NCBI RefSeq assembly: GCF_025384765.1
Contig: NZ_VHLL01000001.1
Span: 62,001 to 126,000, forward strand
Source: Methanoculleus formosensis
GTDB lineage: Archaea > Halobacteriota > Methanomicrobia > Methanomicrobiales > Methanoculleaceae
Reading direction: 5' to 3'
DNA length: 64,000 bases
Shown here: positions 37,302 to 43,170 of the stretch, in pieces
Numbering within the stretch: the first letter of the stretch is position 1
Layout of the letters: every line of letters begins with the position of its first letter
Translations under genes and position numbers: made by a program
Notes under the pieces: model-generated
Databases searched by the model: none
Told to the model about the DNA's origin: nothing
The model's input: the letters and a program-made list of their open reading frames with translations, nothing else

Positions 37302-37784
37302 TCACCCTTCTTTTCGACTTCCGGGTCGTATACAGTCTGTTGCGTCCGGACCGGGATGGATATCGTCAAACGATCCCGCCCCGCCGAAGGCGGCATCGAT
37401 CCAGGCCGCGATATCATCCCGCACCACCCGGAAGACGGTCAGCCGTTCCTCCTCGGTCCCGGTCGCGGCGGAAGGGTCGGGGAAACTTGCGTGGACCGTC
37501 GATTTTGCCCCGGGGAAGATCGGGCAGGCGATCTTTGCCGCGTCACATACCGTGACCACGACGTCCATCTCCTCCCCGATGAATCTGCCGAGGTCCCTGG
37601 ACCGCTGCCCGGAGATCTCGATCCCGAGCTCGGCCATCACGCGGACGGCGAGCGGATGGACCTCCGTCGCGACCGTGCCGGCGCTGAATGCCTCATACCG
37701 GCCGCCGTACCGCGCCCGCAGATACCCCTCGGCCATCTGTGAGCGGGCCGCGTTGTGCGTACAGATGAAGAGGACGCGGTTCAC
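37302..37784 (-). CDS. arsC: Arsenate reductase, thioredoxin/LMW-phosphatase type
   Basis: The 160-residue protein has the phosphatase-like loop [19 protein letters not shown] (CX5R) and the redox cysteines in [16 protein letters not shown], the layout of thioredoxin-coupled ArsC. It reduces arsenate to arsenite for export. A 25-residue tail follows the usual end. The GTG start overlaps the stop of the acr3 gene by four bases, and it is the last gene of the ars operon. A second homologue at 60752 lacks the first cysteine. Confidence 0.9.
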
Positions 37785-38866
37785 ACGACCCCCTGGTCGA
37801 CGGCGCACTGTGCGGCCGGCTCATTCGCGTACCACCGCTTCTTGAGCCAGAGCGCGACGTTGACGAGCCCGATCAGGATCGGCACCTCGATGAGCGGGCC
37901 GATCACGGTGGCGAACGCGACCTGCGAGCCGATGCCGAAGACCGCAACAGCGACGGCGATGGCGAGTTCGAAGTTGTTCGACGCTGCTGTGAAGGCCAGG
38001 GTCGCCGAACGCGGGTAGTCGACGTTGAGCCGGTGGCTCATCCAGAACGCGACGAAGAACATCACTAGGAAGTAGATCAGGAGCGGGATCGCGACCCTGA
38101 CGACGTCGAGCGGGACCTGGATGATGTTCGCCCCCTGGGTCGAGAACATCACGATGATCGTGAAGAGCAGGGCGACGAGGGTCAGGGGCGAGATCCGCGG
38201 GATGAACCGGGTCTCATACCACTCCTTCGATCGTACCCGAAGCAGGATAAAGCGGGTCAGAAACCCGGCGATGAACGGGATGCCGAGGTAGATGAAGACC
38301 GAGGTCGCGATCTCGGCGATCGTGATGCTGATCGCGGTGCCGGTCCCGATCCCGAGGAGCGGCGGCAGAACCGTGATGAAAATGTACGCGTAGATCGAGT
38401 AGAAGAAGACCTGGAAGACGGAGTTTAAGCCCACCACCGCGGCACAGTAGTCGCAGCTCCCGCCGGCGAGGTCGTTCCAGACGATCACCATCGCAATACA
38501 GCGCGCGATCCCGATCAAAATCAGGCCGTACATCAACTCCGGCCGGTCGGCGAGGAAGAGGACCGCGAGAGCGAACATCAGCACGGGCCCGACGATCCAG
38601 TTCTGGAAGAGCGATACGCCCAGCACCTTCCGGTCGCGGAAGACGTTGCCGAGTTCCTCGTACCGGACCTTCGCGAGCGGGGGGTACATCATCACGATCA
38701 GGCCAATCGCGATCGGGATCGAGGTCGTGCCGACCGCAAAGCCGGTGATCGCCTGCGGGACCGAGGGGAAGAAGTACCCAATCCCGATCCCGATCGCCAT
38801 CGCGAGGAAGATCCAGAGAGTCAGGTAGCGATCAAGGAATGAGAGCCGTTTCATAGTTTCAGCCAT
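37781..38866 (-). CDS. acr3: ACR3-family arsenite efflux permease
   Basis: The 361-residue protein has ten hydrophobic segments. ACR3 hallmarks are present: [15 protein letters not shown] and [21 protein letters not shown], the latter carrying the essential cysteine region in the fourth helix, and [20 protein letters not shown]. It extrudes arsenite, and sometimes antimonite, using the proton gradient. GGAG precedes its ATG. A 44-codon ORF overlaps the start from upstream. Confidence 0.93.
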
Positions 38867-39019: not shown

Positions 39020-41776
39020 TCAGCGCCGGTTCACAGGGACCGCGGTCACGCCCGCCTTCTTCACCGCCGTCACGATATCGTCGACCGAGACAGCGGCCGG
39101 GTCGTAGGTGACCTTCAGCTGGTTCGTGATCCCATTCAGGGTGAAAGCGGTCACCCCCTTCAGGGCCTTCACCCGTCTCTCGACCATCTGCCCCTCACAG
39201 GCGCAACCGAGCCCTTCGAGCCGGAACGTCGCGGTCGCAGGACCGGACGATCCGGATCCGTTGCCGGGGATGGGGATTGGAGGCGGCACCTCGTCGGCAG
39301 GCTCTCCGCAACAACAGCAACCTTCTGTCTCGACGAGGGTTGGGGTCGGCAGATCCCGGTCAATCGACGTATCACCGCAGCAACATCCGGCCCCCGCGGG
39401 GGCTGTCGCCGTTGATGCCGCACCAACGTCCTCCGCACCGGAACAGCACGAACCTGTCGCCCCGGCGGCGACGGAGATCTGCGGCTCTCCGCACGAACAG
39501 CAACCGGCTCCGGCCGTTGAAGGAACGGGTAGCACATCGCCCGCAGGTGCGGCACAGGAACAGCAGCCGACAGCCGCCGTCGTCTGCGCTGCAGTCGGAA
39601 TGGCAGGAGCCTTTATCTGGGCAGCAGCGGGGCTCTCAGGTTCGGCGCCGCTCCGCCACGTCAGCAGACGCAGGGCGTTCAAGATCACGAAGACCGCGCT
39701 CCCCTCGTTCAGGAGCAGGCCCGTGACCAGCCCGAGGTAGCCGAGCAGGGCCGCGACGACCATGAACGCGACGTTGATCAGCGAGACGGCGATGTTCTGC
39801 CGGATCACGGTGACCGTCCGGTGCGAGAGTTCGCGCACATACGCGAGTTTCCCGAGGTCGTCGGACATCAGCACCACGTCGCCGGTCTCGATCGCGATGT
39901 CCGTGCCTGCCGCGCCCATCGCGATGCCGACGTCCGCGGCGGCCATGGCCGGTGCGTCGTTGATGCCGTCGCCGACCATGGCCACCGCACCATACTGCTC
40001 TTTCAACTGCCGCACCGCGTCGACCTTATCCGTCGGCAGGAGCTGCGCCCGGTATTCGTCCACACCGACACGCTGTGCAATGACCCGGGCACTCCGTTCG
40101 TTGTCCCCGGTCAGCATCACGGTCCGGACACCGGCGCGTCTTAGCCGCTGCAAGGCCTCGACAGCGCCGGGCCGCACTTCGTCGGCGATCGCGACCAGGC
40201 CGGCGAGCGTCCCGTCGCGGCTCACGAGGACCACGGTCCGGCCTTCACCCTCGTTCCGGGCAATCGTCTCCTCTGCGTGACCGATGTCGATGCCCTGTTC
40301 GAGCATGGCGCGGGGGCTGCCGATGCGGCATGCCCGGCCGTCCACCGTCGCCGCGACCCCGCGCCCGGCCGTCTCCTCGAACTGAACGGCCGGTCGACCC
40401 GAGAACGTCCCGCTTTCGCGGGCCTTCCTCACAATTGCGGCCGCGAGGGGGTGACCCGACCGCGACTCGATGCAGCCGGCGAGGTCGAGCAGTTCATCCC
40501 CGGTGAGATCGTCAAAGGTCACGACATCCGTGACCGCGGGCCGTCCGATGGTCAGGGTCCCGGTCTTGTCGAACGCGATCGCCTTCACCGTCTCGATGGT
40601 CTCAAGGTAGGTGCCGCCCTTGAAGACGGTTCCCTGCTTCGCAGCGTTCGCCATTGCGCCCACCACCGCGACGGGCACGGAGAGCGCAAGGCCGCAGGAG
40701 CACGAGACCACGAAGACGACGAGCCCGCGGTAGATGAACGGGTACCACTCGGCACCGAAGAAGAGCGGCGGCACGGTGGCGACCAGCACGCCGAGGACGA
40801 ACATGGCCGGTGTGTACCACTTGCCGAAGGAGTCCGAGAACCGCTGGTATGACGTCCGCTTCGCCTGCGCCTCCTCGACCGAGAGGATGATCCGGGAGAG
40901 CATCGTCTCGGACGCCGGTTTCGTGACCCGGACCTCGAGTGACCCGTTCTGGTTGATCGTCCCGGCGAAAACGTCCTCGCCGGGGCCGCGGTGCACGGGA
41001 ACCGGTTCTCCCGTGACCGCTGCCTGGTCGACATACGACGACCCCGCGACGACCGTGCCGTCGACCGGCACCCGCTCGCCCGGTCGGACGATCACGACTT
41101 CGCCGACGCCGATCGTCTCGACCGCACAGATGGTCTCGCGGCCGTTGCGCCGGACCAGCGCCTCCTTCGGCACGAGCGCCATGAGCGACCGGATCGCACC
41201 CCGGGCTTTATCCACGGCGTAGGACTCGAGGACGTCGCCAAGGGAGTAAACGATGATCAGGACCGCGGCCTCCCCCCAGAGGCCGAGCGCCATCGCGCCG
41301 ACCGAGCCGATCAGCATGAGCAGGTGGATCGTCGGCGTCAGGTTCTTGAGCGCGATCAGGGCCTTTCGTGCCGGATAGTAGACGCCGATGAGCACGGCGA
41401 GCAGGTAGAGCCCGTTCACGATGGTGAGCGACGTCCCGAAGTATCCCGCGACGAAGGCGATCACTGCGGTGAGGAAGCTCCCGTAGAGGGCGAGCTGTTG
41501 CGGCTCGCGCCACCAGGTGCTCTCCCGTCCCCCGCTCCGCACCTGCGAGGCGGTCATCCCCGTCTCAGCGACGGTGCGGATGATCTCCTGGACACTGATA
41601 ACCGTGGGATCGTAACTGATCCGGGCCTGGCCGGTGACCGGCGTGATCTCGTGGCCCCGGACGCCGGCGAGGGCATCCAGTTTTCGGGCGAGGAGGTCGG
41701 CGTTGCAGGTGCAGTCCATCCCCTGAATCTGCAGGGTAACCGTGTCGGTATCAGATGTTGGTGGAGGAGTGCTCAT
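39020..41776 (-). CDS. P1B-type metal(loid) ATPase with CxC motifs and Cys-cluster tail
   Basis: The 918-residue pump has an N-terminal HMA domain (12-75), a P-type core and a second HMA domain (848-912). The core shows TGEP (255-258), phosphorylated Asp403 in DKTGT, HP at 442-443 and GDGIND at 602-607. Both HMA domains have CxC (C22/C24 and C858/C860) instead of CxxC. The membrane motif is Cys359-Ser360-Cys361, without the usual CPx proline. The last helix has NEGS (690-693) where zinc pumps have a DxG motif. Residues 735-825 form a loose tail with clusters CCSC, CCSC, CC, CCC and CCCC. It lies between arsR and acr3, which suggests export of a thiol-loving ion such as As(III); this is an inference. 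GGGAG precedes the ATG. Confidence 0.9.
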   Translation of the reverse strand: MSTPPPTSDTDTVTLQIQGMDCTCNADLLARKLDALAGVRGHEITPVTGQARISYDPTVISVQEIIRTVAETGMTASQVRSGGRESTWWREPQQLALYGSFLTAVIAFVAGYFGTSLTIVNGLYLLAVLIGVYYPARKALIALKNLTPTIHLLMLIGSVGAMALGLWGEAAVLIIVYSLGDVLESYAVDKARGAIRSLMALVPKEALVRRNGRETICAVETIGVGEVVIVRPGERVPVDGTVVAGSSYVDQAAVTGEPVPVHRGPGEDVFAGTINQNGSLEVRVTKPASETMLSRIILSVEEAQAKRTSYQRFSDSFGKWYTPAMFVLGVLVATVPPLFFGAEWYPFIYRGLVVFVVSCSCGLALSVPVAVVGAMANAAKQGTVFKGGTYLETIETVKAIAFDKTGTLTIGRPAVTDVVTFDDLTGDELLDLAGCIESRSGHPLAAAIVRKARESGTFSGRPAVQFEETAGRGVAATVDGRACRIGSPRAMLEQGIDIGHAEETIARNEGEGRTVVLVSRDGTLAGLVAIADEVRPGAVEALQRLRRAGVRTVMLTGDNERSARVIAQRVGVDEYRAQLLPTDKVDAVRQLKEQYGAVAMVGDGINDAPAMAAADVGIAMGAAGTDIAIETGDVVLMSDDLGKLAYVRELSHRTVTVIRQNIAVSLINVAFMVVAALLGYLGLVTGLLLNEGSAVFVILNALRLLTWRSGAEPESPAAAQIKAPAIPTAAQTTAAVGCCSCAAPAGDVLPVPSTAGAGCCSCGEPQISVAAGATGSCCSGAEDVGAASTATAPAGAGCCCGDTSIDRDLPTPTLVETEGCCCCGEPADEVPPPIPIPGNGSGSSGPATATFRLEGLGCACEGQMVERRVKALKGVTAFTLNGITNQLKVTYDPAAVSVDDIVTAVKKAGVTAVPVNRR

Positions 41777-41839: not shown

Positions 41840-42145
41840 CTATCGTTCGTCACGGTCACCCCCGCTACAGGAAATGGGTATTTCAATACTCTGAATGTCG
41901 AGGATCTTCAGGATCTGAACCGCCTGATCCGATCGGATCCTGTACCAGATGTTTACGCCGTCCCTCCGCGACTCCAGGATCCCGGCCTCTTCCAGGATCC
42001 TGAGGTGCTGCGAGACCGTCGGCTGCGCCTTTCCAACGGCCGGCACGAGGGTACATGCACATCGCTCGCCATCCATCAGGCACTGGACGATCTTTACTCG
42101 TGTCTCATCGGCGAGAGCTTTCAGCAGTTTTATCCTCCCTTGCAC
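41840..42145 (-). CDS. arsR: ArsR-family metalloregulator
   Basis: The 101-residue winged-helix repressor has LKALADETRVKIVQCL, the metalloid site ERCACTL (CxC in the position of the ELCVCDL site of E. coli ArsR) and the recognition helix region QPTVSQHLRILEEAGIL. It should release DNA on binding As(III) or Sb(III). The start is GTG at 42145, just inside a 30-base palindrome that probably is its operator. It begins the operon arsR - P-type ATPase - small ORF - acr3 - arsC. Confidence 0.92.
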   Translation of the reverse strand: MQGRIKLLKALADETRVKIVQCLMDGERCACTLVPAVGKAQPTVSQHLRILEEAGILESRRDGVNIWYRIRSDQAVQILKILDIQSIEIPISCSGGDRDER

Positions 42146-42150
42146 ACTCG

Positions 42151-42180
42151 CATATTGGTATATTCGAATATATGAATATG
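42151..42180. promoter_or_regulatory. ArsR operator and promoter palindrome
   Basis: CATATT and AATATG flank the perfect core TATATTCGAATATA, giving a 30-base dyad with two mismatched bases in each arm. It begins six bases before the arsR start, is AT-rich and contains TATA-like sequence, so repressor binding would block transcription. Confidence 0.75.
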
Positions 42181-42389: not shown

Positions 42390-42794
42390 ATGAAGAAGGA
42401 ACTCGTCATCGAATGGAAGCACATCGGAAACGAGATCGAGAAGACCGCAGAAGAGTTTGAGGAGACCGGAATGACGCTTTCGGCCGTTCTCGCGGAGATC
42501 CGGATGCTCCTCGAGATGGAGGGGGTCAGCGTCCGGGTGGACGAGACCGTCCTCCCCGATGATGCCCCCGCAGGATCGGAGAGTCTCCTCTTCAACGGCA
42601 TCCCGGTCGAGGAACTCCTCGAAGGGGTCGAGGTGACCGCCACGTCCTGCTCCTGCGCATCCTGTGGATCCTGCGAGACCTGCGGGGAGGAGGAGGCGGA
42701 GTGCCGGACGCTCCGCTACAACGGCGAGGAGTACGAGGCGATCCCGCCGGAACTGATCGGACGGGCAGCCGCAAAAGCGCTTGAGATGGAGTGA
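42390..42794 (+). CDS. DUF2703 cysteine-rich protein
   Basis: The 134-residue product starts MKKELVIEWKHIG, with GGAGGAG nearby upstream. It carries the acidic helical region of DUF2703 and then a cysteine cluster (CSCASCGSCETC, about residues 87-98). The family has no known function, but the cluster could bind a soft metal or metalloid. It is divergent from arsR and forms a two-gene operon with the DGC protein, whose GTG lies five bases after its stop. Confidence 0.8.
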   Translation: MKKELVIEWKHIGNEIEKTAEEFEETGMTLSAVLAEIRMLLEMEGVSVRVDETVLPDDAPAGSESLLFNGIPVEELLEGVEVTATSCSCASCGSCETCGEEEAECRTLRYNGEEYEAIPPELIGRAAAKALEME

Positions 42795-42798
42795 GGCC

Positions 42799-43170
42799 GT
42801 GACGGAACCCGTCATCCTCGTCACCTGCTCCGGCCTCTCGAACACCGGGAAGCTGACCGGTCAGGCGGGGATGGTGGCCCGGCAGCGGTGCCCCGGATCC
42901 GTCGAGGCCTGTATCCCGGCACACCGCCTGCCGGCGTCGCTTTCCGGCCGAATCGTCGCACTGGACGGCTGCGAGGACGCCTGTGCGCTCAAAAAACTCC
43001 GGGAGAACAGGGTCGAGCCGGACCTGCACGTCGTCGCGACCGAATGCGGGGTCGTCAAGAACGGTATGGCGGAGCCCCGGTTCGCCGAGATCGAGCGGCT
43101 CGCGGGCGCGGTAATCGAGGCGATCCGGAGCGGGCAGCAGCCCGGGGTGCATCACCCTTCCGGGCCGTAG
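42799..43170 (+). CDS. DGC-domain putative zinc-binding protein
   Basis: The 123-residue protein has VTCSGLSNTGKLTGQAG, VEACIPAH and the family-naming LDGCEDACALK. Several cysteines are conserved in the DGC family, which is thought to bind zinc and is often found near metal or electron-transfer genes. The GTG at 42799 has GAGTGAGG just upstream. It follows the DUF2703 gene directly, and its end overlaps the convergent NTPase gene by 19 bases. Confidence 0.82.
   Translation: MTEPVILVTCSGLSNTGKLTGQAGMVARQRCPGSVEACIPAHRLPASLSGRIVALDGCEDACALKKLRENRVEPDLHVVATECGVVKNGMAEPRFAEIERLAGAVIEAIRSGQQPGVHHPSGP

Follow-up and report, generated by a model that had tools for sequence, protein, structure and literature searches.

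A proline-free CSC/NE lineage of P1B-type ATPases and its member in the arsenic island of a methanogen

CPx-ATPases are named for the proline of their M4 motif. In addition to the subgroups compared here, P1B-6 and P1B-7 were reportedly described as further P1B subgroups by Smith et al. in 2014. P1B-2 is defined by SxP and CPC in M4, T(x)5QN(x)7K in M5, and DxG(x)7N in M6 (PMC5960188). P1B-4 has the signatures SPC in M4 and HEGxT in M6, and the Lys of P1B-2 and the His of P1B-4 are known built-in counter-ions (PMC8880997). P1B-7 is a subgroup without known substrate (PMC7558416). TtArsX of Thermus thermophilus is a P1B ATPase tied to resistance to both arsenic and cadmium (PMC5658604, PMC5960188, PMC8649762). 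An earlier note on the DNA studied here had held that an arsenic-pumping P1B ATPase would be a new specificity; an arsenic-linked member had, however, already been published in TtArsX, which has CPC (PMC5960188, PMC8649762).

The window, the whole 64,000-nucleotide stretch that we analysed, is from Methanoculleus formosensis, a methanogen host with two mcrA-type genes above the curated cut-off. It contains an open reading frame for a 918-aa P1B-type ATPase of the clade described below (39020..41776, minus strand, as are all pump features given here; translation and tree; TIGR01525, 604.7 bits; PF00122, PF00702, and PF00403). The P1B core is present, and the catalytic motifs DKTGT, TGE, HP, and GDGIND are intact, as the earlier note had read them, in columns that are invariant among 32 aligned relatives. 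The M4 ion-binding motif, C359-S360-C361 (40694..40702; translation, alignment, and model), lacks the proline that is usual but not universal in P1B-type ATPases; the SxP of P1B-2 is kept (S366 and P368), while CPC has become CSC. In M5, the Thr and Gln-Asn of P1B-2 are kept, and alignment places V669 (39770..39772) at the site of the P1B-2 counter-ion lysine (T-x5-QN-x7-K; PMC5960188). M6 reads L-N690-E691-G-S in translation, with N690-E691 (39704..39709) standing where P1B-2 has the Asp of DxG and P1B-4 the His of HEGxT; the pump thus has NEG(x)7N by the measure of the former subgroup, and CSC with NEGSA by that of the latter. Its membrane domain contains only two Cys, and Met325 in M3 (40802..40804), where P1B-2 and P1B-4 have Val or Ile, is a possible extra sulfur ligand.

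Direct reading bears out the previously reported CxC in both HMA domains, together with the CSC of M4 and the NEGS of the last-helix motif. The CxxC metal motif is absent from both domains, and the second Cys of each stands one position earlier than it would in CxxC: C22-T-C24 (41705..41713) in the N-terminal domain (residues 11-78, 41543..41746; matched by PF00403 in two stretches, model pLDDT about 85-95), and C858-A-C860 (39197..39205) in the C-terminal domain (residues 847-916, 39029..39238; PF00403 and model). A disordered linker at 39248..39646 is Cys-rich, with 15 Cys within 145 residues and the clusters CCSC, CCSC, CC, CCC, and CCCC. Neither this linker nor the loss of the M5 lysine (V669), the divergent DUF2703-DGC pair, or the wider spread of CSC figured in the earlier note. 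The best-scoring family models for the pump are Zn/Cd types, and its HMA domains are also matched by CopZ- and MerP-type models. An AlphaFold2 model (mean pLDDT 82) has eight transmembrane helices, two HMA folds (beta-alpha-beta-beta-alpha-beta, in agreement with PF00403), and disorder in the linker (pLDDT <50 at residues 711-843). The M4 helix of the model is interrupted at 358-360 despite the loss of proline, a weak indication, since the alignment behind the model otherwise consists of CPC and SPC relatives. The model resembles P1B structures, with a top target-normalised TM-score of 0.83 to a copper pump (7r0g), and the best PDB match by phmmer is sCoaT (7qbz; P1B-4).

That CSC might be a misread CPC, a concern raised previously, is answered by nine genomes of the order that carry CSC, with 31 residues around it identical. 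The orthologs are 95-97% identical to the pump in three other species of the genus and 73-80% identical in five genomes from a second family within the order. Among six diverged orthologs, 27 of the 93 nucleotide columns of the M4 stretch vary versus none of the 31 residue columns; the stretch is evidently under strong purifying selection. This selection and the nine orthologs of the order rule out a sequencing error or a pseudogene. All nine archaeal orthologs keep CTC in the first HMA domain, for which the ortholog of genome G771 has CGC; in the second, CxC is found in 10/10 orthologs.

Maximum-likelihood analysis of 81 P1B sequences places 18 CSC pumps in one clade (support 100/100), which lies outside P1B-2 (CPC, DxG), P1B-4 (SPC, HEG), and the P1B-1 copper pumps, whose SSV-type M6 residues are missing from our pump; the placement of the clade as sister to P1B-4 is weak (83/62). 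The alignment with named P1B subgroups that the earlier note had proposed thus sets CSC pumps apart from P1B-1, P1B-2, and P1B-4, but also reveals that CSC is not confined to this genome. CSC, including the S360 that replaces the proline, and N690-E691 are invariant in all 18 clade members, and the M5 lysine of P1B-2 is replaced by Val or Ile in each of them. Because the P1B-2 Lys and the P1B-4 His are both replaced, CSC pumps have neither known built-in counter-ion. The clade-diagnostic residues S360, N690, Y134, P135, and M325 (the last present in 18/18) are invariant or nearly so and differ elsewhere, while E691 is common to the CSC clade and P1B-4. Our pump falls within the CSC/NE clade as we define it, i.e. 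one clade with CSC, N690, and E691. Judged from sequence, this lineage is distinct within P1B, having CSC in M4, Asn-Glu in M6, and no M5 lysine; it may be P1B-6 or P1B-7 under another name. A further small P1B group (L009, L014, and L058; bootstrap 85) has CPC in M4 and HEGSA in M6, mixing P1B-2 and P1B-4 signatures.

CSC pumps in other archaea, in bacteria, and on plasmids rule out a motif unique to the genus Methanoculleus. Three CSC pumps (68, 53, and 50% identity) were found among 297 sampled genomes of a bacterial phylum that includes a Geobacteraceae MAG, and plasmid-borne ones in Vibrio campbellii, Enterococcus faecalis, E. faecium, Planococcus, Micrococcus luteus, and Dietzia; these cross-phylum counts are lower bounds, since the limits of 1e-165 and 1e-180 would miss pumps at the Enterococcus type of distance. 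The full arrangement of CxC-HMA domain, CSC pump, Cys-rich linker (6-15 Cys), and second CxC-HMA domain occurs in our sample only in nine archaea and G771. Counting genomes with both CSC and CxC HMA domains, as had been suggested, therefore returns just these, whereas CSC alone is wider. None of the plasmid members, G762, or G789 has a CxC HMA domain; in its place is CxxC or CxxE, or no motif is recognisable, or a small CxxC protein is encoded separately beside the pump. The survey does not support CSC plus CxC as the mark of a new arsenic specificity: CSC is common to a broad clade, and most of its bacterial members have the ordinary CxxC or CxxE or lack an HMA domain, with CadC-like repressors or an RND system as neighbours. 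Plasmid matches inspected in Listeria, Lactiplantibacillus, and Cytobacillus were all CPC; across the plasmid collection, CSC could not be told from CPC with an M4 query of 64 residues. Among the 80 loci listed by a motif scan of genome contigs, every pump was of a non-CSC type, which is not evidence of absence, one of its patterns being the common GDGIND. A DNA pattern search across 393 genomes gave four matches besides the pump; the pump had no match at these four loci, and we took them as chance.

The gene order on the minus strand of the window is arsR, pump, acr3, arsC. The ArsR/SmtB repressor (41840..42145, minus strand; NF033788, 90.7 bits against a cut-off of 55; PF01022) lies 63 bp upstream of the pump and has a Cys-x-Cys motif, GERCACT; this adjacent CxC repressor and acr3 (37781..38866, minus strand; TIGR00832, 449.9 bits against a cut-off of 282.8), the arsenite carrier, are as the earlier note described them. 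The arsC it named is likewise adjacent (37302..37808, minus strand; PF01451), but this thioredoxin-type, arsC-like arsenate reductase scores 116.6 bits with TIGR02691, below the curated cut-off of 174.3. Just upstream of arsR, the palindrome TATATTCGAATATA (42159..42172) occurs once in the window and is conserved in three genus relatives, none of which shows more than one change; it is a candidate ArsR operator. Divergent from the operon, on the plus strand, are genes for a DUF2703 protein (42390..42794; PF10865) and an adjoining DGC-domain protein (42781..43170; PF08859, 66.1 bits). The earlier reading of the locus is supported: the P1B pump is intact, its ion site is altered, and it lies within an arsenic island.

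Genes for arsR, DUF2703, DGC, or acr3 lie within about 1.5 kb at 9/9 archaeal CSC loci, compared to 2 of 31 comparison P-type loci of the same family, both with arsR only; if arsR is left aside, DUF2703, DGC, or acr3 is found at 7/9 archaeal CSC loci versus 0/40 control loci, though these linkage counts are not independent, the four genus-level CSC loci being one ancestral arrangement. The presence of arsR alone says little, because it is often beside canonical CPC pumps too (7/9 elsewhere in the phylum). At 27 DUF2703 loci without the pump, DGC is always beside it, and arsC, acr3, or arsG accompanies it at 24. DUF2703 has a thioredoxin fold and is known in fusion with ArsD (PMC3091736), and in a Rhodococcus ars cluster it is arsenate-induced (PMC6514093). 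The pumps of G532 and G533 carry DUF2703 and a Cys-rich stretch as N-terminal fusions. The arsenic link goes beyond what the earlier note stated, because an ars-island protein, DUF2703 (24/27 loci), occurs as a pump fusion in these two genomes. Islands with the pump also include ArsF- and ArsG-family genes, by family model in G018 and G534 and by resemblance in G507. The G507 island further encodes a SaoE/SO_0444-like permease (L146:555-1736) with its own Cys-rich loop, so that this island has two transporters with the trait. Fusions of DUF2703, Cys-rich stretch, and CSC pump at L144:1502-4717 and L145:8986-12150, in two genomes of the order, have a DGC gene immediately upstream.

The bacterial relatives keep other company. 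A CadC-like ArsR (N-terminal Cys pair, ELCVCD) is beside the CSC pumps of G762 and a Vibrio plasmid, and an RND/TolC system with a His-rich adaptor is beside that of G789. We take the two repressors to be CadC-like by eye, from known CadC features. At L158:1969-8978, the order is a TolC-like gene, a CSC pump gene and, directly after it, genes for a His-rich efflux adaptor and an RND pump. The Vibrio campbellii plasmid region L160:3008-10732, flanked by transposon genes and near arr, encodes a CadC-like ArsR, ABC genes, an SMR pair, the CSC pump, and a thioredoxin-domain protein. In a Planococcus plasmid, the CSC pump is followed by a DUF4346 protein (L165:5986-7365) whose repeated CGC clusters are reminiscent of the linker in the methanogen pump.

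Our data establish the motifs and lineage of the pump, the purifying selection on it, its linkage to neighbouring genes, and its fusion to DUF2703; its regulation, the hand-over of ions, and the direction and cargo of transport are inferred. We tentatively favor a working P1B export pump of the CSC/NE clade that in the methanogen serves an extended arsenic island as its ATP-driven arm, with a trivalent arsenical as most likely cargo. A metalloid bound to thiols would release ArsR; the soft ion would be gathered by the Cys-rich tail and the CxC HMA domains with the aid of thioredoxin-fold DUF2703 and handed to C359 and C361, with E691 and N690 completing the site; and phosphorylation of the DKTGT aspartate, D403, would power export beside Acr3. 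The cargo in the archaeal subclade may be As(III) or methylated As(III), with Sb(III) and Bi(III) handled alike. As(III) usually prefers three thiols, while methylated As(III) binds two, and so would fit the two membrane Cys better. The acr3/DUF2703/DGC linkage and the DUF2703 fusion make an arsenical the leading candidate in this subclade, and TtArsX is counted in its favor as an existing P1B ATPase that confers arsenic resistance (PMC8649762). The bolder proposal is that P-type ATPases of the archaeal subclade are dedicated to metalloid export, their proline-free CSC and Asn-Glu binding trivalent arsenicals that are fed in by the CxC HMA domains, the Cys-rich tail, and thioredoxin-fold DUF2703, whether fused or divergently encoded; we consider this possible but doubtful. 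The novelty of the motif is reduced, and the arsenic link for the archaeal subclade is strengthened but unproven.

Against an arsenical cargo, Acr3 of the same operon already exports As(III), the membrane domain offers only two Cys, and most genomes of the family have DUF2703 without the CSC pump (DUF2703 is present in 37/40, the pump in 4/40). The serious rival, which we rate as quite conceivable, is that soft divalent cations (Cd and Pb, and perhaps Zn or Hg) are the cargo of the clade; the methanogen pump would then be a Cd/Pb exporter placed in the arsenic island because resistance genes for metals and metalloids often move as a group and have CxC-type ArsR sensors in common. The top scores of Zn/Cd family models count both against arsenic and for this reading, as do the bacterial CSC loci, which are linked to the CadC-like ArsR (G762, Vibrio plasmid) or the RND/TolC system with His-rich adaptor (G789) and not to ars genes; TtArsX, moreover, serves Cd and As both (PMC5960188). 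Yet the metal-binding Asp and the Lys of P1B-2 and the His of P1B-4 are all replaced in these pumps, and a Cd/Pb exporter sits less easily with the DUF2703 fusion and the acr3/DUF2703/DGC linkage of the archaeal subclade.

The two membrane thiols, C359 and C361, could instead hold a monovalent or linear two-thiol ion for export, e.g. Cu(I), Ag(I), or Hg(II), to which the invariant Met325 of M3 and the CopZ- and MerP-type matches of the HMA domains would be suited; we think this improbable, as the pump falls outside the P1B-1 clade, its M6 lacks the SSV-type residues that the copper pumps of our tree have, and the regulators recognised at CSC loci are ArsR-type, with no copper or mer regulator among them. 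Finally, the M4 proline is nearly invariant among the 32 relatives of alignment A2, and its loss might have ended transport, leaving a degenerate or uncoupled protein, rich in thiols (up to 15 Cys in the linker), whose main role would be to buffer or sense metalloids. This is very unlikely: every catalytic motif is intact, M4 is under strong purifying selection, membrane residues are conserved in the 18 pumps, and the bacterial members keep CSC though they have no Cys-rich linker.

With a conserved and widespread clade that lacks the CPx proline, nature itself provides an experiment on how ion choice depends on residues of M4 and M6. Should the archaeal branch indeed carry trivalent arsenicals, the P1B family would gain a dedicated metalloid pump and DUF2703 a role; should the cargo be Cd or Pb, a chemistry would be defined for an apparently uncharacterised lineage that is also found on Enterococcus and Vibrio plasmids.

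Among known systems, P1B-2 (ZntA/CadA; structures 4umv and 4umw) is similar to the pump in fold, SxP, T-x5-QN, catalytic motifs, and overall sequence (roughly 40% identity), but the pump has CSC for CPC, Val for the M5 Lys, and NEG for the DxG of M6, and belongs to a separate clade. With P1B-4 (sCoaT, 7qbz) it shares Glu-Gly in M6 and the weak sister placement, and it differs in having CSC for SPC, Asn for the M6 His, and HMA domains. TtArsX is likewise a P1B ATPase with an arsenic link and an ArsR/SmtB repressor, yet it is a canonical P1B-2 with CPC, DxG, the M5 Lys, and one CxxC domain, and serves Cd also. Acr3 and ArsAB/ArsD arsenite export is found in the same islands as the pump, and the DUF2703-ArsD fusion is known (PMC3091736); unlike the pump, however, Acr3 works as a carrier, and ArsA falls outside the P-type ATPases.
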